Of a DNA stretch of 64,000 bases, positions 1,379 to 31,704 are shown piece after piece. Position 1 is the first letter of the stretch. Each line of letters starts with the position of its first letter. Origin of the DNA: a virus. The notes below the pieces were generated by a model. It was not told the origin of the DNA, did no database searches, and worked only from the letters and a program-made list of their open reading frames with translations. Made by a program: the position numbers and the translations under genes. Where the stretch lies: the IMG/VR virus record IMGVR_UViG_3300009181_004605, positions 1-64,000 of that record; one strand, 5' to 3'.

Positions 1379-1390
1379 AAGGGTTCCTAA

Positions 1391-14994: not shown

Positions 14995-15004
14995 TAGGAT
15001 AACT

Positions 15005-16033
15005 ATGAAAAAATTAATCAATGCATACAACAGTTGGGATCCGTTGGAGGAGGTTGTTGTCGGACGAGCATATTCTCCGGAATACTTTGACTTCATTGAC
15101 AATGCACAAGTTCGCAATCAGTTACAACAGATACTGAACGAAACTGCAGAAGATCTCGACGCACTTAGCAAAGTTATTGAATCACATGGTGCGATTGTAC
15201 GTCGACCAACTTTACCCAACATAGATAAATTCCAGCAATGGCAGATTAACGATAACGGAGCACCATTACCGCCATTAACTCCGCGTGATTGGCAAATCAC
15301 ACTTGGACAGAAACTATTACGTGTATTATCAATAGCCGAACTGGATGAGATATGTAATGATTTTGGGGATCAAGTTATAAATCCCCACCGTACTCAATGG
15401 GACGAATCATGTATTCTCAACGGAGCCAGTGCCAGTTGCATAGTTCGTGTAGGACGTGATGTGTTTTTTGATAACAGTGATTATTTGCAGCCCAATCAAA
15501 CACGTTGGATTGTTGATAATGTGTTAGGACCCGAATATCGTATCCACGAAGCCATTACAGACGGGCATGGTGATGCTGTGTTTGCTATACTTAAACCTGG
15601 TGTGATACTGTCAAGCAAACATGATTTTCATATTAATCTTGCACATGATTTTCCCGGGTGGGACGTACTTAAACTTTGGGATAGTTCAATATGGGCCGCT
15701 ATGGAAGTTGGCAAGTTTAAGTATGATGCTGATCCCGGAGCATGGTATGTACAAGGACAAACACCAACTCCAGATTTTACAGAATTTGTTAACACATATC
15801 TTACTAAGTGGACAGGTTTTGTTGCCGAGACAGTATTTGATGTTAATTGTCTTGTGCTTGACGAACAACATGTTATATTCAGCGCATATAATAAATCGGT
15901 ATTTGATTTCTGTCAGCAGCATAAAATTGAACCCATTATATGTGAACTACGGCATAGTTATTTTTGGGACGGTGGAATAAGTTGTTGCACACAGGATCTG
16001 CGTCGGCGTGGTGGTATGGAAACCTATCTATGA
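15005..16033 (+). CDS. Amidinotransferase (glycine amidinotransferase-like)
   Basis: This 342-residue enzyme of the guanidino-group modifying superfamily starts at 15005 behind AGGAT. The N-terminal NAYNSWDPLEEVVVGRA (7-22), the catalytic-type His188 in DGHGD (186-190) and the C-terminal WDGGISCCTQDLRRRG (321-336) match arginine:glycine amidinotransferases. Aligning on the DLRRRG end places the nucleophile at Cys327. Such enzymes move an amidino group from arginine to an amine, so a product carrying a guanidino group is likely. The acceptor could be an amino sugar made by the DegT enzyme (inference). Its stop overlaps the start of the radical SAM gene (ATGA). Confidence 0.88.
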   Translation: MKKLINAYNSWDPLEEVVVGRAYSPEYFDFIDNAQVRNQLQQILNETAEDLDALSKVIESHGAIVRRPTLPNIDKFQQWQINDNGAPLPPLTPRDWQITLGQKLLRVLSIAELDEICNDFGDQVINPHRTQWDESCILNGASASCIVRVGRDVFFDNSDYLQPNQTRWIVDNVLGPEYRIHEAITDGHGDAVFAILKPGVILSSKHDFHINLAHDFPGWDVLKLWDSSIWAAMEVGKFKYDADPGAWYVQGQTPTPDFTEFVNTYLTKWTGFVAETVFDVNCLVLDEQHVIFSAYNKSVFDFCQQHKIEPIICELRHSYFWDGGISCCTQDLRRRGGMETYL

Positions 16034-17310
16034 ACAATCTCGACGAAATATATCAAGAACTAGGCTCTGATATATGTCTATGTCCTTTTTTAGGAGCATT
16101 TTATCAAACCAATAATGTAATACCCGATACTGTTCCTACTATGCCAAATAGCGTTAGGCCATGTAGTATTGTTATGTCCGAGGATCGGCATAAATGGGAT
16201 ATAATCAATGATAGTATCACCGATGCTAGAAATACAGATGCATGGAAAAACATGCGTAAAGATTTTATACAAGGTAATTTTCATAAGATTAACGACTGTA
16301 GAGCTTGCAGTCATAATGAACAGGTGGGTGCAACGAGCCCACGGCAACAAAATAATCAATTTTTAGGAAATTTCTTAACAATTGATATTGTTGATCACAT
16401 TAAGACAATTATTGCAAATGATTATATTGTCAATGATATTGTAACATTAGATTATTACCCCAGCAATTACTGTAACTATTCATGTATTATGTGTGCTGGT
16501 GGTGCAAGTAGCAAACGACAAATATTCGAAGTTACTGTATTAAATCAAAAAACAAAAATTATCCTAAATTCTACCGATCCAGATTTTTTCAATATATTAG
16601 AAAAAGTTCAGATTATTAATTTTACCGGCGGCGAAACTGTATTGCAACCACAAGTACATGATATTATAGATTATCTTATTGAACGTGGACTTAGTAAGAA
16701 TATAATGATTACCTTGCTAACTAATGCCAGCAGTAGTCCACAAGAGTTGGATGAGAAATTTAAACAATTTAAGAAAGTTATTTACAATGTAAGTATCGAT
16801 GGTATTGGCAATGTGATTGAATATCAACGTCGTGGATGTAATTGGAAAACTGTTGAGAAACATAGCTTGGAATTGATGCATCATCCATATATTTCTACTG
16901 TGGTTAACTATGTACTAACCGCTGTTAATGTTCTTAGTGCGATGGATTTTGTTAATTGGGCTTATGATAATAATTTTGGTCCAAAGAATTCTGGAGCAAA
17001 TGGCGGCAGCTTTATAAACATAAGCCCGGTGTTTCGTGTAGATCATCTTGGACAAGGTGTGCTACCTCCAGCACTTAGAGAATTAGCATTGCATAGACTA
17101 TATGCAGGTAAACAACGATTTGATAATCAAACTGGATTTATGGAAAATTATTATAGAGGACTAGTAGATAAGATAATCGGTGTAATTGATTCTACTGCAC
17201 ATCAACCAGAATTTATACCATTATTTGTCAATCATATACGCAAGGAAGATTCAGTGTCAAAAAAACATTTGATAGATGTTGTTCCTGAATGGGCGCCGTG
17301 GTTTAGTTAA
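16030..17310 (+). CDS. Radical SAM protein with N-terminal twitch domain (plus-strand copy)
   Basis: This 426-residue protein is one of six related radical SAM proteins in the window and the only one on the plus strand. The N-terminus has the cysteine pattern of a twitch/SPASM-type auxiliary cluster site (CLCPF near 16, PCS near 45, CRAC near 90-93). The radical SAM core motif CxxxCxxC follows at Cys148, Cys152 and Cys155, with NFTGGET (about residue 200) as the SAM-binding GGE-type motif. The start is the ATG overlapping the amidinotransferase stop. Unlike the minus-strand copies it has RPCSI instead of the RPCC type. The substrate is unknown; the neighbours suggest a sugar, peptide or other metabolite. 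Confidence 0.88.
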   Translation: MNNLDEIYQELGSDICLCPFLGAFYQTNNVIPDTVPTMPNSVRPCSIVMSEDRHKWDIINDSITDARNTDAWKNMRKDFIQGNFHKINDCRACSHNEQVGATSPRQQNNQFLGNFLTIDIVDHIKTIIANDYIVNDIVTLDYYPSNYCNYSCIMCAGGASSKRQIFEVTVLNQKTKIILNSTDPDFFNILEKVQIINFTGGETVLQPQVHDIIDYLIERGLSKNIMITLLTNASSSPQELDEKFKQFKKVIYNVSIDGIGNVIEYQRRGCNWKTVEKHSLELMHHPYISTVVNYVLTAVNVLSAMDFVNWAYDNNFGPKNSGANGGSFINISPVFRVDHLGQGVLPPALRELALHRLYAGKQRFDNQTGFMENYYRGLVDKIIGVIDSTAHQPEFIPLFVNHIRKEDSVSKKHLIDVVPEWAPWFS

Positions 17311-18076: not shown

Positions 18077-18077
18077 T

Positions 18078-19007
18078 TTAACTTGGCCAAGCTATTCGTG
18101 TATCGGCTAATAACAATGCTGCACCAATCGCACTAGAACTATCACCAGGCACAGGTAATCCCCATACATTATCCCACAGTGGTAATATGTGTTGTCTAGC
18201 TTTGCTATTCATCGCACACCCGCCCATGTATACCAAGTTGCGCTCACCGGTTAGTTCTAGTGCTTTATACATTACCCAGATTACTTGCTCTTCAAATACT
18301 CGTTGTACCGCAGTGGCGATGTCGTAACGATCATGGCTTGATGATATTTTATGAGGCCAATTATAAACACCACGATGTAAATTATATCGTGCTTGCATTG
18401 GAGATTTGAAATAATCGGCTACAGTTTCATAATATCTACTGTATGCACCATGATCGCTATCAAGTTGTAATAAATGTTCTTCTCCCAATGGTTTGTATCC
18501 TATTAGTTTAGTAAATGCAGAATAGAATAATCCAAGACTATTTGGGTAACTAACACTCCATAATTTTGTAAGCGTCTTGCCGGTGCCTTTCCAAATTGAT
18601 GCTGATTCCCATTCACCTATTGCATCCAATACTACAATAGCTGCACTGTCAAATGTTGATGTATAGAATCCGGCTGCTGCATGAGTCTTATGATGAGAAA
18701 AATATTTTATTGGAATCGACGGTATGGGTAATTTTTCTAAATATACACTAGGAAGTACTTGACTATCAAATGCATCGGCATATTGTCCGGCATATAATTG
18801 ACGAAACTTTTTAATCAGTGGGCGTTCATACCACGCTATCTGATCTGGTTTACCATGAGCAAGAACATCATATATCAATGGCTTACATAATAGTTCATCG
18901 CCGGAATAGGTATAGTTTCGTGACTGTGCCCAAAATGCTAATTTATCATCCTTAATCACGGCGATACTTGCATCATGATTAAGAGCTGTAATACCCCAGG
19001 TTATCAT
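18078..19007 (-). CDS. Carbamoyltransferase, N-terminal (Kae1-like) domain only
   Basis: This 309-residue protein matches the N-terminal catalytic half of NodU/CmcH-type O-carbamoyltransferases: GITALNHDASIAVI (about 5-18), the metal and carbamoyl-adenylate site HHKTHA (105-110), VLDAIGEWES (about 126-135), MGGCAMNS near residue 260 and GDSSSAIGAALL near the end. Family members are usually about 550-600 residues and have a second C-terminal domain that is missing here, with a normal stop codon and tight junction to the next gene. It may work with a separate partner or be a domain-only form. It would add carbamoyl groups to hydroxyls, for example on a sugar. The start overlaps the stop of the 33-residue gene. 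Confidence 0.82.
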   Translation of the reverse strand: MITWGITALNHDASIAVIKDDKLAFWAQSRNYTYSGDELLCKPLIYDVLAHGKPDQIAWYERPLIKKFRQLYAGQYADAFDSQVLPSVYLEKLPIPSIPIKYFSHHKTHAAAGFYTSTFDSAAIVVLDAIGEWESASIWKGTGKTLTKLWSVSYPNSLGLFYSAFTKLIGYKPLGEEHLLQLDSDHGAYSRYYETVADYFKSPMQARYNLHRGVYNWPHKISSSHDRYDIATAVQRVFEEQVIWVMYKALELTGERNLVYMGGCAMNSKARQHILPLWDNVWGLPVPGDSSSAIGAALLLADTRIAWPS

Positions 19008-19105
19008 TTATAAATGAATGGATCTCGTTTGCGCAACTCTTTAAGTTTACGCCGATAGCGTATCTCAAGTCGCATACGCTGATATAACTTTTTTAGCCAG
19101 TTCAT
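19004..19105 (-). CDS. 33-residue basic protein, conserved-looking
   Basis: This short gene encodes a 33-residue basic helical peptide beginning MNWLKKLYQRMRLEIRYRRK and ending KRDPFIYK. It is well supported despite its size. A perfect AAGGAG lies 6 bases upstream (19112-19117). Its start overlaps the stop of the upstream gene as ATGA, and its own stop overlaps the carbamoyltransferase start as ATGA. Small phage proteins ending in RDPFIYK are, as I recall, seen in T4-like cyanophages. The function is unknown; an amphipathic membrane or RNA-binding helix is possible. Confidence 0.82.
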   Translation of the reverse strand: MNWLKKLYQRMRLEIRYRRKLKELRKRDPFIYK

Positions 19106-20187
19106 CCCATTCTCCTTTGATAATCGTAGCCCGGTTTTAGCTTGGCAATCTGTTGTTGTTTATAGTCACTGTCAGTCCAACAGTAATCAAACACTTGATT
19201 AGTACCATTTACTTCTATCTTATATATATCTAGATGTGCAGACAACATATTCCATATAGATTGAAAATCAGTAGTTCCAAAACTCTGTTGCAATTGCACT
19301 TGCCCTATAGGTAAATACCCAAGACTTAGTGAAACATCTGTTATGTCTTGTCCATTGTTTTGTAGCCAGATGCGAAATTGATCTTGTTCTTCATCATGCC
19401 AGGCACATGCACTATTATACACAATATCATTGCCCCATTCAACATCAAATTCTCCAGAATAATATTTAAGATGTGTGATTGCATCACATACTGTATTGGT
19501 TAAAACAGGTGCATGTTCGTCACGAAACACTTCAAACAAGGTTTTTCCTATCTGAGTCCAATGCATGTATACCCCACCAAACACACGGTCGTATCCATTA
19601 GAGTTAAACAGTTGTCTATGTTCATCGGTAAGTGTATACCTATCGGCTGTAATCCAAGTTGTGATTTGACTTGGACGTACCCAATTTGGAGCCGTTACTG
19701 CTTTTCTTCTGCTTAGAATAAGAGACTCTAATTCATGACATATATTGTTTAATTGACGTATAGCATACTTAACATCATAGTCGGCGTGTTTATACCAGTT
19801 ACTAATGTCTGATACTGTTCCTTGCAGTATTTCGAAATGATTATGTAATTCGTTAAACAACATATGATTGGGCCCATTCTCAGCCCAATCAGTTGCTAAT
19901 ACTGTATCTGGAGTAATAGTTAAATCAATATGGTATCCATCTAAGCCATTATTGACTGTGGCAATATGTTGTGTAATCTCATTGCATAGATATTCCACGG
20001 TGCGAGCTGTTTGTGGAAATCCAAGGAAACAATAATTTTTCTCTAAAGGTTTAGCTGATTGTAATAATTTTTCAAGAGCTGATATCCAGTCTTGTCCAAG
20101 CTTATGATCAAATGATTGTATAACATAGTCAAGTTGATCGGCATGATTTAATGGGTTGCGTAGAACTATACGTACATTAGATTCCAT
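19102..20187 (-). CDS. Unknown protein of the modification operon, 361 residues
   Basis: The start at 20187 (MESNVRIVLRNPLNHADQL) is chosen because an AGGTGG sequence precedes it and it overlaps the upstream radical SAM gene by only 11 bases; an in-frame ATG at 20229 would overlap more. The protein is mixed alpha/beta with a helical first half, an aromatic segment GGVYMHWTQIGKTLFEVFRDE near the middle and a C-terminal strand-rich part. I recognise no catalytic motif. Its place between a radical SAM gene and the 33-residue gene suggests a role in the same pathway, perhaps as substrate carrier, scaffold or an unrecognised transferase. Nothing in it settles this. Confidence 0.7.
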   Translation of the reverse strand: MESNVRIVLRNPLNHADQLDYVIQSFDHKLGQDWISALEKLLQSAKPLEKNYCFLGFPQTARTVEYLCNEITQHIATVNNGLDGYHIDLTITPDTVLATDWAENGPNHMLFNELHNHFEILQGTVSDISNWYKHADYDVKYAIRQLNNICHELESLILSRRKAVTAPNWVRPSQITTWITADRYTLTDEHRQLFNSNGYDRVFGGVYMHWTQIGKTLFEVFRDEHAPVLTNTVCDAITHLKYYSGEFDVEWGNDIVYNSACAWHDEEQDQFRIWLQNNGQDITDVSLSLGYLPIGQVQLQQSFGTTDFQSIWNMLSAHLDIYKIEVNGTNQVFDYCWTDSDYKQQQIAKLKPGYDYQRRMG

Positions 20188-21457
20188 TCCACCACCTAGA
20201 AACATCTGATCTGGCGGCAAGTATATCATTCATTGTGATGTTATGTGTACGTATACTTTCTAATTTTAGTATGCGTGTCTTACCTCTACGTAGTCCATCT
20301 GCATAAGCATCTGGCCATTGTTCCTCAAAGGTAGGACGTTGTTTAAGTTGTAGTAACACATCTGATAATGCTCCGGAGATTTGTGGAACAAGTTCATCAA
20401 TCCATGCATTTAATATATTACGCGGTAATGCAAGTGGACTCATTACAATGTCCGAAGTAAAACTGAATATAACTTTAGCCAACACATCAACACCGAGTTG
20501 TTTAGCTAACTTGTCAATCGCAATAACTTCAAACATACCTGGTAAGGTCAGTGTAAAATCTATACGTAATTGTCTTGGATGTTTTGCATATGGTAGCCCA
20601 AGTTTAAAATTATCCAACCATTCATTATAATTTAACCCGGTGCGTATGTATTCACCAATAGCGCCAGTGCCATCAAGACTGGCACATATTTGCCAATCAC
20701 GTAAATGTGCAAGTATATCTTTGTATAAATTAGTACCACCATAACCGACTTTACTAAGATTAGTATTGTACCGGGCATAAACGTTCTTACCATCGCCAAG
20801 CTCAATGATACGTTTCATATATCGCCAGTGTTGCTCATACATAAGTGGTTCACCACCCACCCAATAAATCTCTTCTACTCTATGTTCTTCAACTGCTTGT
20901 GAAAATTCAGCTTCTATTTGTGTGTCTTGAAATTGTGTTATCTGTTTTTTAACCATAGGACGCATCCAATTGTTTTTTGGATTGGACCAATCGACCATAT
21001 TATTTTGACGTTGTTCTATTTCCCAACTACTCGACAGCATATCACCACACATACGACATTTAAAGTTACAGAGATTGCTAAATCTATAATCCCAACTTAC
21101 TGGTAACATTGTGGTTGCACCATCGGCATTGGTTGTGCTAGATATTTTATCATATTTGTGTTTAAACAATTGCCAAAAGTATGTACGATATACATCCGTA
21201 TTCAATAGTTTTTCATTGCATACTTCGCATTCTGGCAATGTTTCTCCAGCTATCATCCTCCGTCTAACAGACTGCATATGAGCACTATTCCAATGTTCCT
21301 CCAAAGTGATTGGAATATACTTGCCGGATCCAGCTTTTGTGTCGATATATTGTTTAAAATTTTGTGCAGGTTCACGACTTGCACAGCACATCCTACGTTC
21401 GCCTTGTGGAGAAAGATATGTGTGAGTCCATGGTGCTAGACAAAGTGTATTAGACAT
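20177..21457 (-). CDS. Radical SAM protein with N-terminal twitch domain (copy 2)
   Basis: This 426-residue protein has an N-terminal CLAPW (6-10), MCC (23-25) and CEVC (77-80) cysteine set typical of twitch/SPASM auxiliary cluster domains placed before the core. The radical SAM cluster is at Cys130, Cys134 and Cys137 (CNFKCRMC), and WVGGEPLM (about 198-205) is the SAM-binding motif. This order, twitch then core, is the opposite of usual SPASM proteins. Substrates of such phage proteins are unknown. It overlaps the preceding gene by 8 bases and the next by 11. Confidence 0.9.
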   Translation of the reverse strand: MSNTLCLAPWTHTYLSPQGERRMCCASREPAQNFKQYIDTKAGSGKYIPITLEEHWNSAHMQSVRRRMIAGETLPECEVCNEKLLNTDVYRTYFWQLFKHKYDKISSTTNADGATTMLPVSWDYRFSNLCNFKCRMCGDMLSSSWEIEQRQNNMVDWSNPKNNWMRPMVKKQITQFQDTQIEAEFSQAVEEHRVEEIYWVGGEPLMYEQHWRYMKRIIELGDGKNVYARYNTNLSKVGYGGTNLYKDILAHLRDWQICASLDGTGAIGEYIRTGLNYNEWLDNFKLGLPYAKHPRQLRIDFTLTLPGMFEVIAIDKLAKQLGVDVLAKVIFSFTSDIVMSPLALPRNILNAWIDELVPQISGALSDVLLQLKQRPTFEEQWPDAYADGLRRGKTRILKLESIRTHNITMNDILAARSDVSRWWNGI

Positions 21458-22658
21458 AGTTGACTAACTTAGCAAACTCGGGCTCAACAATAGATAAATG
21501 TTGCGAACGTTTACGATCAAGATCAGCAATCCTCATACGCATGATCGCTCCATCTGTACTTGCGCCCTTATTCATAAATTCTGCAATTAATTTAAATTCT
21601 GCTGATACTTTTTCTAAAACGTCGGCATTAATTAATCTATCAGTTATAACACTCTTGGCTGTATCCGGCAATGATGCAACACTAAAGTACCAGGCATCAT
21701 GCATGATATTCCAATATATGTAATCAAAATGTTGCTTAACAATCCATTGTGCTACAGTTTCTAGATAATACACATTAAACACATTTACCGTACAGCAGAC
21801 CTGTAATCGTATATTTTTACATCGTTTGCGTAGTTCTCTAAATTTTTGTATGTTATCGCATACTTCTGACCATACAGCATTACTACGTTGATATTCAAAT
21901 CTCTCTGCAACATCATCAATGCTAAATGCAATCTCTACTAATTTAAAATGCTGCCAAATATTTTCAGCATTGCTAGGCCATTGTGTGCCATTTGTATTGT
22001 AGTGGATTTCAATAGTACCTGCTAGCCCTTGATCAACAAGCCGTTGCAGCATATCAAAATGCTCACGGATCATGAATGGTTCACCACCAGTAAATTCAAT
22101 ATATCGTATTTGTTCGGATACCTGTGCTATTTCTTGCCAGAAACCTGGATTTTCACGTGGCCAAGCACCAGCACGTAACATAGTAAAGTGATGATTATTT
22201 TTTGAATCTTCTCCGACTGGCAAATTTTTTAGTTCTTCAACTGCAAATGTGCTTGAACTCCAACTACCACATATACGACATTTTAGATTACAGATATTTC
22301 CTAGCTTGAGATCTAAGAATACCAATGGTTTTGCATCAGCCGTCCAGCTTTGGTCTGGCAGCATGTGTTTTAGTCTATCCAATGTATGCATACGCTTGCT
22401 TGTACGACCACCACGTTCTTCATTCCAACATTTTCTGCAAGTTTTTGGCTGTTTGCCATCAAGAAATTCTTGACGAAGATCCCGCATATGAACGCTGTCT
22501 TGTATATTTTGAAATCCTGCTTGATGCAAATCAAATTTATTACCAGCATCATCTACTATTTCATCATCAGCAAGACAGCATGGTCTCACTGTGCCAATTG
22601 GGCTGGTCTCAAGGCTAACCCAGGGCAATACACAGAACTTATCGTGTGGGATATTCAT
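21450..22658 (-). CDS. Radical SAM protein with N-terminal twitch domain (copy 3)
   Basis: The start at 22658 is taken because its ATG overlaps the upstream stop as ATGA; longer versions only read into the preceding gene. The 402-residue protein begins MNIPHDKFCVLPWVSLETSP and carries PCC (27-28) and CRKC (74-77). The core motif is CNLKCRIC at 123-130, and FTGGEPFM (about 189-196) follows. The IEIHYNTNGTQWP strand matches the radical SAM barrel. It belongs to the same paralogue group as the copies at 20177 and 22655. Confidence 0.9.
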   Translation of the reverse strand: MNIPHDKFCVLPWVSLETSPIGTVRPCCLADDEIVDDAGNKFDLHQAGFQNIQDSVHMRDLRQEFLDGKQPKTCRKCWNEERGGRTSKRMHTLDRLKHMLPDQSWTADAKPLVFLDLKLGNICNLKCRICGSWSSSTFAVEELKNLPVGEDSKNNHHFTMLRAGAWPRENPGFWQEIAQVSEQIRYIEFTGGEPFMIREHFDMLQRLVDQGLAGTIEIHYNTNGTQWPSNAENIWQHFKLVEIAFSIDDVAERFEYQRSNAVWSEVCDNIQKFRELRKRCKNIRLQVCCTVNVFNVYYLETVAQWIVKQHFDYIYWNIMHDAWYFSVASLPDTAKSVITDRLINADVLEKVSAEFKLIAEFMNKGASTDGAIMRMRIADLDRKRSQHLSIVEPEFAKLVNYV

Positions 22659-23941
22659 ATTAATGCAGCCAATTCTGGAATAACATCTAGTATATTTTCG
22701 CATCGTATATAATCAAGCTCACTAGTTTTAGCCCAGAATGTATCGATTAATTTTGTATTATCGGTTTTATTCATAAAGGTAATAGCACTTTCAAATCCAA
22801 CAGTTGCTCTATGTAGTGTGTCCAACGGGCGCAGCCATTCTAAATGTTTTTCAAATTTTTGTTGTATCTGTTCTTTATATTCTTTAGTTGCGATATCAAT
22901 TCTAAAATGCATTGGATCTTGTAAGATATTTACATTCAAATCTTGCGGGTATATCAATCCCTTATCAATCCAATCTTTATGAAAATCAGGCAGGTGCAAT
23001 GCATTCATGATGCTAAGTGTTGGTGAGATATAAAAGTCTACATCAGGACAGATTTCTATCATACTTCTACGATTTTCTTCTACAACTTTCCACACGGTAC
23101 CTTTACGAATATATTCAGCACGCGGGCCCATAGCATCTAAGCTGGCTCCAACAGCGACATGTTCAAACTTTTTCCAATAATCAAATACACTACGATTTTT
23201 TAGTTTCACTTGTGTAAAGTTTGTATTGTATATCAGTCTTACATCAAAGCGTTTACGACGTTCTAATTCTTCAAGGATAAGATAATGTTCTTCCATCATT
23301 AATGGTTCGCCACCGGCAAAATATATTTGCTCTACATGATCGATATGTTCTATTAGCTGTTCCCACATATCGGTTTCATGTTGCCCGGCGTAGTTTAATG
23401 CCGTGTTTTTAATCGCCCATTCGGGTCCAGCAATTTTGACTTGATCTTGATACCATTGACTTGAAAATATAGATCCACAGCTACGGCAACGGAGATTGCA
23501 TAAGTTGCTAAATCGTATATCCCAATATGTCATGGCAAATTCATCCACATGCCCGGTGTCTGTAGTATCGTCAATTCGATCAATTTGATGTCCGTGATGC
23601 TTGTTAGCACTTTTACGTCCACTGAAAAATCCAGATTGTTCTTGCTCGTAACAACGACCACATGCCACATTGGTATTTTCAGACAACATATCTACTCTAA
23701 GTTTCTTTTGTGGTTCACTATTCCATATTTCTTTAAGTGTATTGGTTTTACAATTACCAACGGGATAGTTCATTTCTGAATGGCAACATGGATAAGCTTC
23801 GCCGGTGGGATAGGCATGTAGGTGAATCCAAGGATAGATGCAAAATGTTTTTGATTCTGAAAGCAAGAACTGTTTCTTTTTGTCAAGATCGGCTAATTGG
23901 ATCTTAACTGGATCGGTGCTGCTATAATTATATGCTGTCAT
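22655..23941 (-). CDS. Radical SAM protein with N-terminal twitch domain (copy 4)
   Basis: This 428-residue protein has an extra N-terminal helix (about 25 residues, LADLDKKKQFLLSESK) before the twitch domain: CIYPW (34-38), PCC (51-53) and CGRC (94-97). The core cluster is at Cys148, Cys152 and Cys155, and YFAGGEPLMM is the SAM-binding motif. The C-terminus ends with ENILDVIPELAAL, a type of ending also seen in the plus-strand copy (HLIDVVPEWAPWF) and in NLLEWYDSI of the 23928 copy, and may be a shared C-terminal helix. It overlaps both neighbours. Confidence 0.9.
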   Translation of the reverse strand: MTAYNYSSTDPVKIQLADLDKKKQFLLSESKTFCIYPWIHLHAYPTGEAYPCCHSEMNYPVGNCKTNTLKEIWNSEPQKKLRVDMLSENTNVACGRCYEQEQSGFFSGRKSANKHHGHQIDRIDDTTDTGHVDEFAMTYWDIRFSNLCNLRCRSCGSIFSSQWYQDQVKIAGPEWAIKNTALNYAGQHETDMWEQLIEHIDHVEQIYFAGGEPLMMEEHYLILEELERRKRFDVRLIYNTNFTQVKLKNRSVFDYWKKFEHVAVGASLDAMGPRAEYIRKGTVWKVVEENRRSMIEICPDVDFYISPTLSIMNALHLPDFHKDWIDKGLIYPQDLNVNILQDPMHFRIDIATKEYKEQIQQKFEKHLEWLRPLDTLHRATVGFESAITFMNKTDNTKLIDTFWAKTSELDYIRCENILDVIPELAALI

Positions 23942-25265
23942 ACCATTCTAATAGATTGGGAAATGTTTGGGCAAAGTTTTTACCACGACGTTGATCGTAT
24001 TGTGTGTAAAATTGTTTGAAATCATTGTGTAGCTTAGGCATGTCAAATGCATCACTATGTGGGGTTTTAACTACGTCAAGATAATCAATTAATCTTTGGA
24101 CCTGATTGATTTCGTGTTCGTGTAACAATTTATTTGATGCATTAATATTTAACCAAGCTGCAAGTGTGTGTTGATATCGTGTACGAATTTCTACCGGTAA
24201 CACCAAGGGGCTTTGGAAGCTGGGGAAACGCAGTATATTAAGTGTAAAACTTGGAAAATCTTTACCATATAGATGCTTTAGTTCAAGCATATGATTTAAG
24301 AAGTTTGGTAAACTGTCAAGGCATAGCGCGTTGATCGTACACATCACATGCACAGCACGAACGGTGCCACTTGTGATAAGTGTTCTCATGTTCATAAACC
24401 ATTGTGCGTAATCAAGCCCATCTCTAATGTATTCTGCTTGTGCTGAAACCGATTCACAGCTAGTATAAACTTCAACATGTGGCAATGGGCGTATAGCTTC
24501 AATAAACTCTTGTAGTTTGTCTTGCTTGAGTCCAAGATTACTGTTAATTGCAAGATGTGTAGTGCTCTTACCTTGATTAAGTTTAAACCATTCTATTAGT
24601 TTCCAAGTCTCGGCTGACATTAATGGTTCGCCACCAGTAATGCGTAGCTCTTTAAGGGTACGATGTAGATCAGTTTCCCACCAACGAAAAAATGCATCAA
24701 CATATGGATTTACTTCACCAAATTTATACAGTTGTGCGCTGTCATGCGGATGTGTGAAATGATTACGACCATCGCTTATTAGTCCGGTGTATGCTCCATT
24801 GGTTTTAATATCCTTGACCCATGTACTTGAAAATGCAGGATTGCAGTAGCTACAAGCAAATTGACAGGTGCGATCAAATGCAATTTCTAAAGTTTGAAGA
24901 TCCACATCGGCAGTTGGATCCATATCAAATGCACGTTGTAGATCTTGTTTGCTGTAGATTTTACTTTTGTACACACGATCACTAATGTTATTACGTCCAG
25001 TGTCTTCTATTTTCCAACAGTATTCACAACCTTTTGGACGATTACCATCCTGCATCATAGCACGATCCAATTTTTTAGTTGGAGTATTGTGTATTGCTTT
25101 AGGATTTGTTTTTAATGCTTCGGTGTCGATTGCATGTGCTGGAGGGTGATGGCAACTGGTGCTTTGACCACTGCCTAACCATATGGTTGCATTATACCAC
25201 TTGGCCGCGCAAAAGCTGGCACTTTTAGTGTCAAGCACGTTGCGTTTAAATTCTAAATCGTTCAT
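23928..25265 (-). CDS. Radical SAM protein, HPP subgroup (copy 5)
   Basis: This 445-residue protein belongs to a distinct subgroup shared with the protein at 26430. Instead of PCC it has SCHHPPAHAID (37-47), followed by KTNPKAIHNTPTKKLDRAMM and CEYCWKIED (80-88). The core motif is CQFACSYC at 134-141 and ITGGEPLMS follows. The likely target of this subgroup differs from that of the PCC group. Its start overlaps the stop of the upstream gene (ATGA), and its end overlaps the next gene by 14 bases. Confidence 0.9.
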   Translation of the reverse strand: MNDLEFKRNVLDTKSASFCAAKWYNATIWLGSGQSTSCHHPPAHAIDTEALKTNPKAIHNTPTKKLDRAMMQDGNRPKGCEYCWKIEDTGRNNISDRVYKSKIYSKQDLQRAFDMDPTADVDLQTLEIAFDRTCQFACSYCNPAFSSTWVKDIKTNGAYTGLISDGRNHFTHPHDSAQLYKFGEVNPYVDAFFRWWETDLHRTLKELRITGGEPLMSAETWKLIEWFKLNQGKSTTHLAINSNLGLKQDKLQEFIEAIRPLPHVEVYTSCESVSAQAEYIRDGLDYAQWFMNMRTLITSGTVRAVHVMCTINALCLDSLPNFLNHMLELKHLYGKDFPSFTLNILRFPSFQSPLVLPVEIRTRYQHTLAAWLNINASNKLLHEHEINQVQRLIDYLDVVKTPHSDAFDMPKLHNDFKQFYTQYDQRRGKNFAQTFPNLLEWYDSI

Positions 25266-26446
25266 TTGATATGTTGATTGATAAATTGGTGGAACTGATT
25301 GGGCAACTCTCTAGGAACTTGGTGACGCATCTCAGTATACAACTCTTGATTGTATTTACATACATTATAACACTCTTTGTAGAAAATTGCAAGATCTTGT
25401 TGACATAAATCTTCAACCACTTCAGCTACACGTTCAATACGATCTTGACTGTTATCTATTACGTCAAATGATTCATCAATTACATGTCCGAATGTTTTAA
25501 ACCCCAGCTTATGTATGTCTCGATAAAATCCTCGATTGGCCACAGCAATAAATGGATGTCCTACAGCAACAGGTTTCCAAATCTTTTCTGTTCTAAAGCT
25601 GTATGGGTAATTAAACACTGTTTCAGTTACTAGACTAAAGTAAGTATCTCTGTATGCTGTTCCATCTACTACAGCATCGCCCCAGGTGTTGTTGAACAAA
25701 TTAAATTTAACAGTACCAGCAGAGGGCAAATGATCTATATTGTTTCTAAATGCTGGAGTTTCGTATACCTTAGGTAGGAAATGCAGATCAATCTGGCGTT
25801 CCATAACGTCCGCACCGTTGTGCTCAAACGCCAATTTGATCATATTCATATTGTTAAAATTCTGCCAACATGTTTGTGGTAGATTTTTAATTAGCACAAG
25901 ATCAGTGTCAAGATTTGTCCATAGACTATGATCTAATAATCCACTTGCTTGAAATCGCTCTAACAGATATTTTCTATGGCTACGCATACGTCCATTTAAA
26001 AATAGGAAATTGTATGGTTTATCGGTGATTGCAAAATACTCCTCGATGCGGCTGCCAGCTTCAACATTCTCATCAAAGTCAAATATCTTGGGCAGAAAAT
26101 ATTCATACCTCATGTAGGGCCACGTAGAAGGATCCATGTCGCCACCACCAATTAACAGTATACGGCCTTCTTCTATTAGGTTAATTAGGCCTTTGACAAA
26201 ACACCAAGTAACCAGAGTTTCTGACCCTTCTGCGGCATTGTCTAATATCACAGTTACCTGGCCACTACGAGCCAGTTCTTGTATTTCATAATTGTAATTG
26301 TTGACCTGTTCACGACATATGATATACACAGCACCGGGCACTATTTCATGCTGTCGAAGATCCCAAAATTCGTCGTCGGCCCAGGGCAATAATTCTCTAT
26401 AGATTTCGCTATGTGTGTCTAATATAAGTTTATGATTGCCGAGCAT
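25262..26446 (-). CDS. Glycosyltransferase-like protein (TEK-motif family)
   Basis: This 394-residue protein shares its C-terminal block with the protein at 13870: LVTETVFNYPYSFRTEKIWKP, then HPFIAVANRGFYRDIHKLGF, then KTFGHVIDESFD (about 270-330). The TEK and DES(Y/F)D elements resemble the donor half of family 10 type glycosyltransferases, though the match is not decisive. It lies between the two HPP-subgroup radical SAM genes and overlaps both (17 and 4 bases), so it is likely part of the same functional unit. Confidence 0.7.
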   Translation of the reverse strand: MLGNHKLILDTHSEIYRELLPWADDEFWDLRQHEIVPGAVYIICREQVNNYNYEIQELARSGQVTVILDNAAEGSETLVTWCFVKGLINLIEEGRILLIGGGDMDPSTWPYMRYEYFLPKIFDFDENVEAGSRIEEYFAITDKPYNFLFLNGRMRSHRKYLLERFQASGLLDHSLWTNLDTDLVLIKNLPQTCWQNFNNMNMIKLAFEHNGADVMERQIDLHFLPKVYETPAFRNNIDHLPSAGTVKFNLFNNTWGDAVVDGTAYRDTYFSLVTETVFNYPYSFRTEKIWKPVAVGHPFIAVANRGFYRDIHKLGFKTFGHVIDESFDVIDNSQDRIERVAEVVEDLCQQDLAIFYKECYNVCKYNQELYTEMRHQVPRELPNQFHQFINQHIK

Positions 26447-27827
26447 GATACTTACATTCTGCCCACCATGAGCTCATTTCTGGAAATACAGTTAAGAAGT
26501 TGGTACCGTGTCTGCGGTCTGATTCCGTAAAGAAGCGATAAAAGTCTGCTTTATTTTTATTAAGATATACTGGATCTAACTTCTGTCCATCACGCATCCA
26601 AGCAATGTCGCGATCAAGACGTGCCAACTCATAATCTTTAAATCCTTTAAAAGGAGCTTCTTCTGTTTCTAATTGTCGAATCATCCAAGCCCATATTAGT
26701 TCTAATTGATCTGCATAGCTTTCTGGTAACAACTGTAGACTTTGCCACGTAGGTTGACGTAATACTGGAGTATCAAACCAGATACGTTGATAGGTATTGC
26801 TGTATAGATGTCGTAAGCCCAGTATAGCTGCAAATAAACTACCAAGCCCTGTAACAGATAGATTATTCATTGTAACAATGAATGTGATACTGTTACGTCC
26901 AGGAATTTCTGTTAAAAATTGATTAACTCGATCCCATAACAGATTAAAATCTAATCCATTCCGTATATATTCTGCTTGTGATCCAAATGAATCTAAACTT
27001 ACATATTGCATAAAATGTTCAACATTGTCTTTTTTACATAGGCGCTTGACATATCTAAGATATTTTTTCCAGCTTTTTTCATCGACTGAAAAGTTACTGG
27101 TAACATTTAAATGCAGATCTGGCTTTGGATTAGCTAACACATAGTCAAACACACGATAGGTATTTTTATCAAGCAATGGTTCGCCGCCAGTCATGCGGAA
27201 ATGTTTTAGCTGTGGATATAGTTCAGGCCACCATGCCCAGAATGCATCCACATAAGGATTAGGTTGTGAGTGTGGTATTGGCTTACGACTTCCTGCGAAA
27301 TGTTCTGGAGCATTATGTGGTGTTGAAGTTGGGTAGGCTCCATGTCGATCTATTTCCTGCTGCCAAGTACTGCTGAACTGTGGACTGCAATAGCTACATT
27401 TAAGATTACAAGCATTGTTGAAATTAACTTCTACATAACTAGGAATAACATCTTCGTCACCAGTTGAATTTTTAATAGCATCAAAATCTGCAGCAGCCCA
27501 TGGTTCTCCAGAACGGTAGTGTCTATCACTAAGTTTGCCATTATCTTCCATATTCCAGCAGTAGCTACATTCTGCTGGACGTTCTTGTTTTAACATAATC
27601 TTACGTTGCTCTTTTTTGTATGCGGTATTATGTAATGCAGATGGATTGGACTTAATCGCAGATGGATCTATAGAATGTAGGGGAGGATGGTAACATGAGT
27701 TATTAAGCCCAGTTGGTAAGTGTAAGCTTACCTGTTTCCATTTAGCTAAACAAAGCGCATGTCCAAGTTTATCATGCATCGTTTCGGCATCGTTTAAAAA
27801 CTTTGATTTAAAGTCGGGTGTTGTCAT
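26430..27827 (-). CDS. Radical SAM protein, HPP subgroup (copy 6)
   Basis: The start at 27827 overlaps the upstream stop as ATGA; an in-frame ATG at 27842 lies inside the preceding gene. The 465-residue protein has the subgroup motif SCYHPPLHSID (44-54), then NPSALHNTAYKKEQRKIM, then CSYCWNMED (87-95). The core cluster is at Cys130, Cys134 and Cys137 (CNLKCSYC) and MTGGEPLLD follows. It is clearly paralogous to the protein at 23928 over the whole length, down to NPYVDAFWAWW versus NPYVDAFFRWW. That points to a duplication with a glycosyltransferase gene now between the copies. Confidence 0.9.
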   Translation of the reverse strand: MTTPDFKSKFLNDAETMHDKLGHALCLAKWKQVSLHLPTGLNNSCYHPPLHSIDPSAIKSNPSALHNTAYKKEQRKIMLKQERPAECSYCWNMEDNGKLSDRHYRSGEPWAAADFDAIKNSTGDEDVIPSYVEVNFNNACNLKCSYCSPQFSSTWQQEIDRHGAYPTSTPHNAPEHFAGSRKPIPHSQPNPYVDAFWAWWPELYPQLKHFRMTGGEPLLDKNTYRVFDYVLANPKPDLHLNVTSNFSVDEKSWKKYLRYVKRLCKKDNVEHFMQYVSLDSFGSQAEYIRNGLDFNLLWDRVNQFLTEIPGRNSITFIVTMNNLSVTGLGSLFAAILGLRHLYSNTYQRIWFDTPVLRQPTWQSLQLLPESYADQLELIWAWMIRQLETEEAPFKGFKDYELARLDRDIAWMRDGQKLDPVYLNKNKADFYRFFTESDRRHGTNFLTVFPEMSSWWAECKYHARQS

Positions 27828-28519
27828 ACTAATAAATCCCATACTTTATTAAAAACTTCATCATCATAAAATTTTAATTCTTTTTGCATAGTACTTGAAA
27901 AAATATCTGTTCCTGTTCTGATATCAATGATAGTATCAGCGTGGGACAGGTCTATTGGATATTTAGAATAGTAATCCAGATGCCAGTCTATTATATCGTT
28001 CGCAGAATCGATTTTGTTAATATATTCATTTTTAATAGTGTTTAGCGGCACATCTGATTGATAAGGTGACAAGATTTTTTTTAAATCTTGATTAACTTCG
28101 TGTACTATCTCAATTGGCAACTTATTAAAATCTGCTATGCTCAAACAATCAGGCCAACTGCTATCTTTAATTATGTTATAATGAACAATTCTATCTATGA
28201 TAGGCTCGATCTTTTTTTTAACGTGACGAGTATGCCCTTCGAGAATCCATTCACGTTGCAAACATTTATTCAAGTCACCTAAAATTAAACAGATACTATG
28301 TTTGGGGAACTTAGATATAATATAACGAGAATTTAAACAATGCGTTAATATATATTCTTGCCCTTTATCTACAATATCATCTAATAGATACCGGTTTTCA
28401 AAATACTGGGGAGTATTTACTTTACTGTCGTATGTTACATTTGATTCTTGCCATTCTAAATTTTCCAACATACGTAGATATCGATTACCACCTGCACCCG
28501 GATAAAATGCAATAATCAC
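27824..28519 (-). CDS. Unknown protein with P-loop-like N-terminus (sulfotransferase-like?)
   Basis: This 231-residue protein begins MIIAFYPGAGGNRYLRMLEN, where the glycine-rich turn after the first strand (PGAGGNRY, 7-14) resembles the cofactor loop of small phage sulfotransferase-like or P-loop proteins. Other parts (YILTHCLNSRYI near 57-68, FPKHSICLILGD near 71-82) fit an alpha/beta nucleotide-binding fold. No clear Walker B or sulfotransferase 3' phosphate site is visible, so the assignment is tentative. It is 3 bases from the upstream glycosyltransferase gene and overlaps the downstream radical SAM gene. Confidence 0.6.
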   Translation of the reverse strand: MIIAFYPGAGGNRYLRMLENLEWQESNVTYDSKVNTPQYFENRYLLDDIVDKGQEYILTHCLNSRYIISKFPKHSICLILGDLNKCLQREWILEGHTRHVKKKIEPIIDRIVHYNIIKDSSWPDCLSIADFNKLPIEIVHEVNQDLKKILSPYQSDVPLNTIKNEYINKIDSANDIIDWHLDYYSKYPIDLSHADTIIDIRTGTDIFSSTMQKELKFYDDEVFNKVWDLLV

Positions 28520-28522
28520 AAG

Positions 28523-29449
28523 TTACCAACCTTCTTGATTTCTAATTACATCAATCTCACGCGTCATAATACCAACATTGTGCCAATTGCTGCGATAATG
28601 CTGTTTGAAGAATTTGCTGCTATTCTCGTCTAACATAGTAATTGGCAAACCAAGTTGCGTAACCAAATCTTCAGATACACGACCTGCTAATAAATCTGGG
28701 TCTGAATCCTGCACTGTGCCCCACAACTCAGCTAATGCATCAAAATCTTGAACCGTTGTATGATCCCAGGAAGTGAGCATGGTCATGTAAGTACCCATCC
28801 TGGCGCCGGCTATACTCCAACTTCCGTGCTCTACATCACGGCCAACGTTGTGCCATATAGTAAGATGATCAAGATTACGCTGATGCACTTGAGTTTGAAA
28901 TTCTGCTAATGTTGGCTTTACTCCCTTATTCAAGCACATCTTAACACCTTCCCTAAATCCTGCGCGCCAAGCATGATAGGATGATTGATCGGGATAGGTT
29001 GTGCTATAGCAATCATGCATGGGCCAATACAACGGATCAAAGCAAAACTCTACTTGGGTTTCGGCTCGGCCATCTGTGGCTTCATGTGTTTGCATACGGT
29101 TAACAAAGTTTTTTGTCCAACTACTTATTCCACCATTGCCGTACATGAGTCCATTTATATGATTACGGGCACGCCAACGATATACAGCCTGTTGCCATTC
29201 TGCAGTGGGAAATTCCAATGAAAGATTAAAAAACTTTAGATCAGGCATGTTGTCGCCGTCAATTAGGATAAATCGATCAGTTGTGCTGGCTGCTGCTGCT
29301 GCTTTATGTGCTGCGTCACTGCCCCTAATCCCATCAACTCGTTTGGCCCATGGGATCATATGTCGAATTTTAATCCAGAATTCTTCTCTATTTGGTTCAT
29401 CAAATGTAAGGAAAATTACATCAAGATCGGCAATATCAATTTGTGTCAT
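28523..29449 (-). CDS. Glycosyltransferase-like protein (GT-A type)
   Basis: This 308-residue protein has LDVIFLTFDEPNREEFW at the start, DGIRGSDAAHKAAAAAS (about 37-53) and DRFILIDGDNMP (about 58-69), where DGD stands as a DxD-type metal and sugar-nucleotide motif. The layout matches a GT-A fold. It is similar to the third module of the 530-residue protein at 12279 (DIVFISNGESNAEQNW, IRIDGVVGRAQAYRAA, INGLMYG versus VNGLVYG), so the two arose from one ancestor. It overlaps the upstream gene by 14 bases. Confidence 0.75.
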   Translation of the reverse strand: MTQIDIADLDVIFLTFDEPNREEFWIKIRHMIPWAKRVDGIRGSDAAHKAAAAASTTDRFILIDGDNMPDLKFFNLSLEFPTAEWQQAVYRWRARNHINGLMYGNGGISSWTKNFVNRMQTHEATDGRAETQVEFCFDPLYWPMHDCYSTTYPDQSSYHAWRAGFREGVKMCLNKGVKPTLAEFQTQVHQRNLDHLTIWHNVGRDVEHGSWSIAGARMGTYMTMLTSWDHTTVQDFDALAELWGTVQDSDPDLLAGRVSEDLVTQLGLPITMLDENSSKFFKQHYRSNWHNVGIMTREIDVIRNQEGW

Positions 29450-29789
29450 AGTTCTTTAAACTCCACTGTGTATGTATCTGTGCAGCATCCACCACCACAC
29501 ATATATCTTGAGGATCGCAACAGGTCCCTGGGGATATTGGTACTAGCTTTTTTGACTGCGAGTTAATATCAATTTTTACCAATTGTCCGGCTACTACACG
29601 AACCGTCATCGATGCGGTTACATAAACTATTGGATCTACATCTATATATAATCCAGGCAGATCCTCCATAGTGTAGAATAATGGCATACCTTGTGCATCA
29701 TGGTATAATCGTCGAAATATTACAGCTGGCGTATCATGTGCCCAGTTATTAAATACTGCCCAAAAATTATCAGTGGTTTCGTTGCTCAC
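29436..29789 (-). CDS. Unknown protein with GTG start, 117 residues
   Basis: I place the start at a GTG (29789) because the upstream gene stops with a TAG sharing the G of this GTG, and an ATG further out lies inside the upstream gene. The protein (VSNETTDNFWAVFNNWAHDT) has a core FYTMEDLPGLYIDVDPIVYV, then SKKLVPISPGTCCDPQDICVVVD with a CC-x5-C set. Similar short proteins with MEDLPG and TCCDP-D-CVVVD segments are, from memory, found in aquatic T4-like phages. No function is known to me. A small metal or disulfide site is possible. Confidence 0.68.
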   Translation of the reverse strand: MSNETTDNFWAVFNNWAHDTPAVIFRRLYHDAQGMPLFYTMEDLPGLYIDVDPIVYVTASMTVRVVAGQLVKIDINSQSKKLVPISPGTCCDPQDICVVVDAAQIHTQWSLKNYDTN

Positions 29790-30574
29790 TATATACGCCA
29801 ATCTTTGATATGGTAATGTACCGCACCCCATTGGGCTATGGTATTGATACGTAACCCAGGGTTAGTATGTTCCCACACAAGTTCTTGTGTCCAGTCCGAT
29901 GTCCGAGTTGGGATGATGTGTTTTTTCATATGTACCATGGTTGGTCCATAACCCGGCGGTAATATAACTGTATCTGGACCTAGAATTACTGCGGCCACTG
30001 CATACACAACATCAGTTGTAGGATCTTGCTCGGCAAACTTTAACAACTTCTTAAATTGATCCCAGTTTTCAAATATCTTGCGCACCAACTCAAAAAATTC
30101 TCGAGCTGCATGACTTGCTCGCCAATATGTAATACCGTTGTATACATCCGGCAACTGATTTTCATCAAACACACGTCGATAGAATCTGTTGCTACTTGTT
30201 TGGTCGTAAAAATCCCTGCAACCTTGACTGATAACTATATCGCGATGTTCAAACAATGTCCACCAATGATCAATTGGGCTGGCAATGAACATGTCAGCTT
30301 CGAGTTTTATGGTTTGACGAAACGGTGATGCTGAAAAAACTTGCCAATCATTTGATAGTTTCCAATTACTATCAGGATCTTGATCTCCGTGCGGTAATTG
30401 AACCACATGATCAAATATTGGATCTGTTATAGATTGATTTGTCAACAAGCAAACATTTGCAGCGGGATGCCAGTCCTTTATGCTGTGAGCAAGCTGCCGA
30501 GCACAGGCTATATAATCATTGTTGGCTGTGTTGATAGCAGGGATTAGATATCCGCGTTCACTGAGAATTGGCAA
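29789..30574 (-). CDS. Glycosyltransferase-like protein (GT-A type, ExD motif)
   Basis: This 261-residue protein is paralogous to its upstream neighbour (30558). Shared parts are CARQLAHSIKDWHPAANVCLLTN against SAKNIHRHLNIPVCIVTD, and SPFRQTIKLEADMFIASPID (83-102) against SPWQQTLVLDADYVVASDQ. The metal motif here is Glu92-Ala-Asp94, a variant of DxD. A GT-A fold is likely, with UDP- or GDP-sugar donor unknown. The gene stops at a TAG shared with the GTG start of the next gene. Confidence 0.78.
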   Translation of the reverse strand: MPILSERGYLIPAINTANNDYIACARQLAHSIKDWHPAANVCLLTNQSITDPIFDHVVQLPHGDQDPDSNWKLSNDWQVFSASPFRQTIKLEADMFIASPIDHWWTLFEHRDIVISQGCRDFYDQTSSNRFYRRVFDENQLPDVYNGITYWRASHAAREFFELVRKIFENWDQFKKLLKFAEQDPTTDVVYAVAAVILGPDTVILPPGYGPTMVHMKKHIIPTRTSDWTQELVWEHTNPGLRINTIAQWGAVHYHIKDWRI

Positions 30575-31364
30575 CTATATCTCCTAGATGGCGTTTTCCC
30601 ATGGCGTGGAAATCTTGACCTTGCAATGTTATCCAGCGTGGCTGTTTTTGTGCTGTAACAAACTCCACACGGTAATTGTCTTGACTTATCTCGACTACTG
30701 TGTGCTCGGGAGTAATACTGGCAAGATTCCAAGGTATAACAGGGTAGGTAAGGACATGTCCATTAACAAAACTTTGAGCTATTGTTAGGGCATGATCGTT
30801 GCGATATGCTGATCTTGCGTTGGCATAAAGATTTACATAGTGTGGCCAATGATCACGTACCATACGCATGCTCTTAAAAATAAGATCCGCTGTGGTGCTG
30901 CGTTGAAATAACATAACAGTGGCCCAGGACATAGGCATACGATGTTGACCAAAATAATTAAGATCATCAAAATCTCGTAAGTTGGTTATGTCATAGGCGC
31001 GTGAATGTGCAAGGAAGTCTTGATTTGCTGAAAACAAAGTGCTGAGTTGATCACTTGCCACCACATAATCTGCATCAAGTACCAAGGTCTGCTGCCATGG
31101 TGAAATGTTATATGCATCCACACGATCAGCATTGTACCAAATCACATTACCATCAATGTCTGCAAATTGTCTGGTGCTACCAGGTTGTGGCTGCAGATGT
31201 ATAATCTGATCGAATGTATGGTCGGTTGGTAGCACATCTGCATCAGTTACAATACACACCGGAATGTTTAAATGTCGATGTATATTTTTTGCAGACCAAG
31301 CAGCAAGTGACACATAGTCGATATGCTCATTATTGAATGCAAATATCAACGCACCGGTTGTCAT
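30558..31364 (-). CDS. Glycosyltransferase-like protein (GT-A type, DxD motif)
   Basis: The start at 31364 overlaps the preceding stop as ATGA; a longer frame reaches into that gene. The 268-residue protein has GALIFAFNNEHIDYV at its N-terminus and the metal motif Asp97-Ala-Asp99 in LVLDADYVV, with DDLNYFG and WATVMLF segments typical of GT-A transferases. It is paralogous to the next gene (29789), so the operon has a tandem glycosyltransferase pair. They overlap by 17 bases. Confidence 0.8.
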   Translation of the reverse strand: MTTGALIFAFNNEHIDYVSLAAWSAKNIHRHLNIPVCIVTDADVLPTDHTFDQIIHLQPQPGSTRQFADIDGNVIWYNADRVDAYNISPWQQTLVLDADYVVASDQLSTLFSANQDFLAHSRAYDITNLRDFDDLNYFGQHRMPMSWATVMLFQRSTTADLIFKSMRMVRDHWPHYVNLYANARSAYRNDHALTIAQSFVNGHVLTYPVIPWNLASITPEHTVVEISQDNYRVEFVTAQKQPRWITLQGQDFHAMGKRHLGDIVANSQ

Positions 31365-31669
31365 CTTTGTTGTGTAAGTGTGGTGTATTCTATCAGCCAG
31401 GCATTCATTTGTTCCTGCCATCGCTGTTGGCTTAATGCCATGAGTTCTGTGGTATCGATTTTTACCGGAGTCTCGTAAAGATCTAGTAACACTGCTTCAC
31501 CAATTTTACCGCATGTAAATATAGTTGCCTGTAATTCTGGACCGGCTTGCCACATACCTCCGTGACTTGCAAATAGCAGTTTAGCTTGATATTTTTCTTT
31601 TAAAGTGCGTTTGGCCGCAGCATGATCAAATCGTGCTCGCGAATGTTTAATCAATTCATCAGTATCCAT
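31361..31669 (-). CDS. Unknown protein, first gene of the modification operon
   Basis: The start at 31669 (MDTDELIKHSRARFDHAAAK) is preferred to an ATG at 31711 that lies in the terminator hairpin. The 102-residue protein has an N-terminal basic helix, a strand-rich middle (KLLFASHGGMWQAGPELQATIF, CGKIGEAVLLDLY) and a helical C-terminus (SQQRWQEQMNAWLIEYTTL). I do not know the family, although similar small proteins occur in T4-like phages as I recall. There is no ribosome binding site, and a -10 element ends 6 bases upstream, so it may be translated from a leaderless message. Confidence 0.68.
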   Translation of the reverse strand: MDTDELIKHSRARFDHAAAKRTLKEKYQAKLLFASHGGMWQAGPELQATIFTCGKIGEAVLLDLYETPVKIDTTELMALSQQRWQEQMNAWLIEYTTLTQQR

Positions 31670-31675
31670 GTGATA

Positions 31676-31704
31676 ATTATACAGGAAAATTAGGCAAAAG
31701 TAAA
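31676..31704 (-). promoter_or_regulatory. Candidate promoter of the modification operon
   Basis: On the minus strand TTTACT (31699-31704) and TATAAT (31676-31681) are 17 bases apart. The -10 box is perfect and the -35 box matches TTGACA at four of six positions. The expected transcription start falls at or next to the first codon of the gene at 31669. It begins inside the terminator hairpin of the upstream late operon. Confidence 0.6.

Follow-up and report, generated by a model that had tools for sequence, protein, structure and literature searches.

An uncultured T4-like phage, represented by the IMG/VR virus record IMGVR_UViG_3300009181_004605 of 69,132 bases, encodes six radical S-adenosylmethionine (SAM) proteins of the N-terminal-twitch (N-twitch) family, named R1-R6 here, and five of these (R2-R6) belong to a minus-strand operon in which they are interleaved with putative transferases and which adjoins the baseplate and tail-fibre genes. 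The joining of radical SAM and transferase genes to tail-fibre genes is kept in hundreds of aquatic phages, and single enzyme genes within it are swapped as cassettes. The stretch analysed, hereafter the window, comprises positions 1 to 64,000 of the record, and its relatives, both close and distant, were gathered from IMG/VR. The locus is tentatively read as a late cytosolic module that builds and tailors glycans on a Ser/Thr-rich tail-fibre protein, the radical SAM enzymes tailoring the sugars; this proposal falls a little short of probable. The T4-like affiliation is seen in the genes for baseplate wedge protein gp6, gp25, a gp5-type lysozyme protein, tail-fibre proteins and the late sigma factor gp55. 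On the minus strand, R2-R6 and the baseplate and fibre genes all belong to one extended run, which ends at 17303, and it is this common strand and position that suggest late expression of the module; the T4 late-promoter octamer TATAAATA is depleted in the whole window (1 match vs 8.9 expected) and was thus unusable as a sign of late expression.

When the window proteins were searched against Pfam, NCBIfam and PHROGs, all six radical SAM proteins exceeded the curated cut-off of 170 bits for the N-twitch family NF033640 (N_Twi_rSAM), scoring 206-397 bits, and a six-frame search of the window with Radical_SAM returned exactly six matches, at the places already named in the original prediction. 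As that prediction had claimed, a single CxxxCxxC motif follows a cysteine-rich twitch domain in each of them, the N-terminal cysteines ending in C-x2-C; the invariant columns of the family alignment are C34, C94, C97, C148, C152 and C155. Pairwise identity among the six is 18-33%, with R5 and R6 as the closest pair. The coupling of five copies in one operon is likewise borne out by the overlap of the R2-R6 genes with those of the transferases, whereas R1, whose orthologues occur in few loci, is not in the conserved core. A profile comparison aligns the auxiliary C-terminal domain of BtrN onto the N-terminal domain of the family (E ~4e-4), and the predicted structure of R4 finds its best VIA matches in BlsE (Z 12.8, 3.5 Å over 219 residues) and anSME (12.7, 3.9 Å, 225), followed by DesII (12.5, 4.2 Å, 232) and a sactipeptide enzyme (12.5, 3.6 Å, 211). 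Assigning a substrate from the fold was rejected, the matches being tied between sugar- or nucleoside-acting enzymes (BlsE, DesII) and peptide-acting ones (anSME, CteB, SuiB).

The relatives show how constant the arrangement is. R6-R5-R4-R3-R2 are orthologous and in this order in most IMG/VR relatives, R2 and R3 sometimes being swapped. A search seeded with GTx, a conserved putative transferase, yielded 80 loci, with radical SAM genes in 78 and both virion genes, S31741 and S32732, in 79; the two loci without radical SAM sit on contigs that end early. Seeding with S31741, the alignment of which has no conserved stretches and the relatives of which were sought by a single-sequence scan, gave radical SAM in 58 and GTx in all of the 59 loci with room downstream, while S32732 gave 52 and 54 of 54, respectively. 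Such seeding from a transferase or fibre gene is the stronger test because its starting point is not a radical SAM gene. Where at least 9 kb follow GTx (121 loci, a set that includes loci found via radical SAM and retains near-identical contigs), at least one radical SAM gene is present in 120 loci, all five orthologues in 70 and a strongly R6-type copy alone in five, and an R6-type protein is the first radical SAM protein after GTx in 139/152 loci. The seeding and order results together define a core of S32732-S31741-U31361-GTA1-GTA2-small protein-GTx-R6, and the conservation of its order across divergent phages excludes chance. Three loci (L327, L392 and L406) keep the fibre genes and GTx with no detected radical SAM gene downstream and represent rare natural losses.

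The idea of one pathway, which the original prediction had tied to co-occurrence of the copies with the same transferases, therefore survives in part. R6-R2 are not independent and their neighbours are not random, and orthologues kept in order beside the same transferases and fibre genes support a coupled system; a single fixed pathway, however, is not fully supported, since R6 is the only copy beside the fibre-transferase block in a few relatives, rare ones have the block with no detected copy, and a close relative has gained or lost whole radical SAM and transferase genes. The pattern is better matched by a core to which tailoring steps are optionally added. Over the operon, the DNA of L002, the closest relative, is 89-93% identical to that of the window, from which it differs cleanly at gene boundaries in three places: U27824 is replaced by a radical SAM gene, the TEK-motif transferase gene at 25262 is absent, and an extra radical SAM gene lies between R3 and R2. 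Of the accessory genes that recur across the loci, 106, spread over 63 loci, code for SGNH-type proteins akin to DUF6071; further recurrent products are NAD-epimerases, UDP-sugar dehydrogenases, an APS-kinase-like family, DegT aminotransferases, hexapeptide transferases and B12-type radical SAM proteins.

In the mechanism proposed, the two GT-A-like proteins (GTA1 and GTA2) and GTx would build a short saccharide, most likely on S31741, which is encoded just before them. R6, joined in most relatives by R5-R2, would perform one SAM-radical step each on the sugars, for instance oxidation, epimerisation or deoxygenation, aided by an auxiliary iron-sulphur cluster that the N-terminal twitch domain would hold, and the TEK transferases, SGNH proteins and amidino-, carbamoyl- and aminotransferases would attach further decorations. 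Through the single-gene cassette swaps, related phages would display different sugars, perhaps altering receptor binding or evading recognition. We infer the sugar substrate, the fibre as its carrier, the order of the steps and the biological role from different kinds of evidence. A sugar substrate is suggested by the company of aminotransferase, epimerase, UDP-sugar dehydrogenase, amidino- and carbamoyltransferase and other transferase genes, and by the polysaccharide loci in which bacterial relatives are found. A target on the virion is argued for by the linkage of the transferase genes to virion structural genes (79/80 and 59/59 loci) next to the baseplate and fibre genes, and by the Ser/Thr-rich composition of S31741, whose family has a median of 29% Ser plus Thr. 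The divergence of S31741 also follows that of GTA1 and GTA2 (r 0.82-0.92) more closely than that of S32732, the neighbour on its other side (0.70-0.78). By a simple hydropathy count the enzymes almost all lack membrane segments, and no lipid-linked export gene was found when GtrA and undecaprenyl-sugar transferase families were sought (0 of 16 records, which may be fragments).

Several points weigh against a tailored fibre glycan. The co-divergence may reflect linkage alone, the loci not being fully dereplicated, and the assignment of GTx and the TEK proteins as glycosyltransferases draws on sequence motifs. The window carbamoyltransferase matches PF02543 only and is without the C-terminal domain (Carbam_trans_C); its relatives encode the full two-domain enzyme, matching NovN, GdmN and TobZ. 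The tie among the nearest folds of R4 leaves a peptide substrate as close as a sugar, and U19102, for which a cyclophilin-like barrel with a helical insert bearing invariant His, Glu and Cys is predicted, would fit a protein substrate too. Soluble transferases could also act on the host lipopolysaccharide (LPS) core, and in Vibrio phage K566 about five distant N-twitch-like proteins, interleaved with GT8-type and GT4-like transferases, are encoded near an LpxC gene.

The last two points lead to the first alternative, late remodelling of the host surface (LPS core or O-chain), which might block superinfection or prevent re-adsorption of progeny, the soluble transferases and radical SAM enzymes acting on sugar attached to lipid on the cytosolic side of the membrane. 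This is unlikely, though it ranks second among the targets that the original prediction had listed. Such a role has been proposed for pelagimyophage transferases in a similar region (PMC7029224), and the N-twitch genes of bacteria are found in polysaccharide loci, of which one has ABC-exporter-like genes. The lack of matches to GtrA-type flippases and undecaprenyl-sugar transferases in the 16 records, however, speaks against it, as do the solubility of the enzymes and the tie of the block to tail-fibre genes.

Less likely still, and third on that list, is direct action of the radical SAM enzymes on the fibre protein, producing oxidised, epimerised or cross-linked residues, with the transferases adding sugars or acting separately. 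The constant adjacency of the fibre genes, the fold of U19102 and the protein- or peptide-acting enzymes among the nearest R4 folds, SkfB included, would agree with this; most other neighbours, however, are sugar enzymes, and no gene for a precursor peptide was seen to accompany the radical SAM genes, other small open reading frames (ORFs) not having been tested exhaustively. The candidate precursor, a 33-residue microprotein, was rejected as the leading idea because, where it occurs independently, it follows carbamoyltransferase and SGNH genes: of 37 similar genes recovered with a DNA pattern, 29 have a carbamoyltransferase nearby and 23 an SGNH gene, but only 8 a radical SAM gene. That the microprotein gene is real is shown by the nearly invariant C-terminus of its product, typically LEIRYRKKLKELRKRDPFIYK, of the form [KR]DPFIYK, on a protein of about 33-50 residues. 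No locus with a carbamoyltransferase is without this gene, which in most cases shows translational coupling to the gene that follows, mostly a carbamoyltransferase or SGNH gene; it is found in loci such as L090, L096 and L150, and also in loci with no radical SAM gene nearby. The microprotein is thus more likely a partner of the carbamoyltransferase or SGNH enzymes than a radical SAM substrate. A BLAST search of cultured phages gave no match, a result made unreliable by low-complexity filtering, and four loci of cultured phages (L547, L548, L549 and L551) scanned for the motif had none. L550, a single-cell-derived fragment of Marine virus AG-345-D19, has two SGNH genes, a similar, microprotein-like ORF and genes for a carbamoyltransferase, a radical SAM protein and an amidinotransferase relative. 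Hypermodification of phage DNA or nucleotides, with a ThyX gene nearby and viperin among weak sequence and structure matches, is highly improbable and was rejected, the linkage being to tail-fibre rather than replication genes and no base-modification enzyme having been recognised among the proteins in general family scans.

Table 1. Features of the module and its surroundings in the window, in order of position.
Feature	Position	Strand	Evidence or remark
Methyltransferase (Methyltransf_24), possible tailoring enzyme	10615..11214	+	PF13578 1.3e-20
DegT/DnrJ/EryC1/StrS sugar aminotransferase	11227..12306	+	PF01041 1.3e-57
Longer GTx relative	12279..13871	-	Relatives in about 30 loci
Second TEK-motif putative transferase	13870..14994	+	Alignment
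Amidinotransferase-family enzyme (AGAT/StrB/SxtG relatives)	14975..16033	+	PDB profile 1.9e-18
R1, N-twitch radical SAM	16030..17310	+	NF033640 206 bits; CxxxCxxC; outside core operon, adjoins amidinotransferase
Carbamoyltransferase (NodU/TobZ-type O-), N-terminal half	18078..19007	-	PF02543 1.4e-29; alignment with full-length relatives
Basic microprotein, 33 residues, conserved C-terminus RDPFIYK	19004..19105	-	Motif in 74/427 loci
U19102, conserved protein	19102..20229	-	48-sequence alignment; AlphaFold2 pLDDT 88.7; VIA Z up to 8.8 vs cyclophilin-fold chains
R2, N-twitch radical SAM	20177..21457	-	NF033640 279 bits
R3, N-twitch radical SAM	21450..22703	-	NF033640 327 bits
R4, N-twitch radical SAM	22655..23941	-	NF033640 397 bits; AlphaFold2 pLDDT 96.4
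R5, N-twitch radical SAM	23928..25265	-	NF033640 309 bits
TEK-motif putative transferase, exchangeable cassette	25262..26446	-	Absent at same point in L002
R6, N-twitch radical SAM, module anchor	26430..27842	-	NF033640 312 bits
U27824, accessory cassette	27824..28519	-	Present in 3 loci; swapped for radical SAM gene in L002
GTx, conserved putative transferase, IDGDN motif	28523..29449	-	Alignments
U29436, small fast-evolving protein between GTA and GTx	29436..29831	-	Small ORF at same place in most loci
GTA2, GT-A-like transferase	29789..30574	-	Conserved in loci; weak glycogenin match
GTA1, GT-A-like transferase	30558..31421	-	Aligns with GTA2; conserved in loci
U31361, conserved small protein between fibre and transferases	31361..31711	-	74/80 GTx-seeded loci
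S31741, Ser/Thr-rich (30%) virion-type protein, proposed target	31741..32721	-	79/80 GTx-seeded loci
S32732, virion structural / tail-fibre protein	32732..34090	-	PHROG virion and tail-fibre matches; 79/80 GTx-seeded loci

The transferases named in the original prediction are conserved genes, while their labels fared less evenly. GT-A-like refers to a weak profile match to glycogenin (E ~0.04), and a GTx profile gave no usable match against the PDB. The TEK motif of the second group is evident in the alignment, but these proteins matched no Pfam, NCBIfam or PDB family and are only putatively glycosyltransferases. The amidinotransferase is homologous to AGAT (E 1.9e-18), StrB (2.7e-13) and SxtG (9.3e-13), and recurs in 21 loci, with 76-87% identity in those listed. 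A D,D-peptidase that had been counted as part of the operon system is a real Pfam S11 enzyme; it was rejected as a pathway member and probably stands outside the system, because only 3 of the loci examined carry one. Transport genes of a host-like kind also occur in this T4-like phage: one for a sodium:dicarboxylate symporter and one for a solute-binding protein, at 107-2221 (minus strand) of the window.

Copy numbers of the family in other phages can be much higher. Searches of whole records gave as many as 16 NF033640 members above the cut-off in one record of 347 kb and 14 in one of 156 kb, other large records having far fewer and one a single copy above the cut-off; copies outside the core are scattered single insertions among phage genes, those for replication and packaging included. 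Among seven large relatives, IscU occurs in four and an A-type carrier in six, and in the 347-kb phage record IscU and A-type carrier (IscA) genes directly precede a radical SAM gene (G010:C1:291412-294158). A few contigs have a nucleosidase-superfamily gene (PNP_UDP_1) flanked by radical SAM genes, and its product could remove 5'-deoxyadenosine, a known inhibitory by-product of radical SAM enzymes (PMC8102628). Flavodoxin, as a co-encoded electron donor, was found in none of 17 records. The conserved cluster cysteines, the IscU and A-type carriers and the nucleosidase gene are, at the level of sequence, signs of active radical chemistry. The wider claim, that a widespread lineage of aquatic T4-like and jumbo phages bears radical-tailored tail-fibre glycans, with up to 16 exchangeable twitch enzymes, phage-encoded iron-sulphur assembly and resulting variation in receptor use or escape, is advanced with reserve as plausible and somewhat less than probable. 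Distant versions of the family are found in cultured Vibrio phages of the KVP40 group, and KVP40 itself, a long-cultured laboratory phage, has three N-twitch-like radical SAM genes (L266, record 135058-144466). Vibrio phages nt-1, QD01 and CZ01, whose listed host is V. natriegens (Vmax for QD01 and CZ01), each have a radical SAM homologue but not the exact module. At E 1e-5, the cultured-phage collection contains no match to GTx, GTA2 or S31741. Tandem arrays of N-twitch genes are also seen in bacteria, in L019, L020, L025 and L046 (an Elusimicrobia metagenome-assembled genome, MAG) and in L017 (a Bacteriovoracaceae MAG), the L017 genome holding eight NF033640 copies above the cut-off in one cluster.

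R1-R6 share the domain order of NF033640, an uncharacterised family, and differ from it in forming an ordered set of paralogues in a phage operon. With the Twitch/SPASM enzymes BtrN, BlsE, DesII, anSME and CteB they share a radical SAM core and an auxiliary-cluster domain, although this domain is N-terminal here and identity is only about 13-18%. Phage O-antigen conversion by gtrABC likewise changes a surface through phage-encoded sugar transfer, but relies on a GtrA-type membrane flippase, a family with no match in the 16 possibly fragmentary records searched. In mycobacteriophages, phage transferases are thought to decorate structural proteins of the virion, which resembles the module proposed here, the description being without radical SAM steps. 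One genome announcement suggests capsid glycosylation in a mycobacteriophage (PMC11256854). For pelagimyophages, a 2020 report described radical SAM cassettes in the host-recognition region, and this cluster of pelagimyophages and cyanomyophages is again T4-like, placed in the tail-fibre region and equipped with transferases; there, however, it is a variable region without a fixed unit, whereas here a fibre-GTA-GTA-GTx-R6 core is conserved (PMC7029224). The T4-like ocean genome TARA_ERS488813_N000010, described in a section of a 2017 paper, combines 12 radical SAM genes with an A-type carrier and iron-sulphur assembly in one phage, as the present relatives do, while gene arrangement, target and mechanism do not figure in that section (PMC5332604). 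In a study of the Baltic Sea, viral genes were given the label ahbD, an inference described there as speculative (PMC9301287). The abundance of radical SAM genes in such phages is thus already known (2017, 2020); no report of the fibre-transferase-R6 core, the cassette exchange, the microprotein or a role for the enzymes was found in a literature search that mostly did not extend to subscription papers.

Radical SAM enzymes are costly and oxygen-sensitive, yet in aquatic phages a single uncharacterised family of them can reach 16 copies, with the core copies beside tail-fibre genes. To our knowledge, radical SAM tailoring of virion sugars would be a chemistry not previously known in viral surface decoration. 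Vibrio phages K566 and KVP40 may serve as bench models of the N-twitch family. If virion sugars are indeed tailored in this way, a function would be given to the large unassigned family NF033640, the radical SAM and transferase cassettes in the host-recognition regions of abundant aquatic phages would be explained, and the module would stand as a viral counterpart of natural-product glycan biosynthesis.

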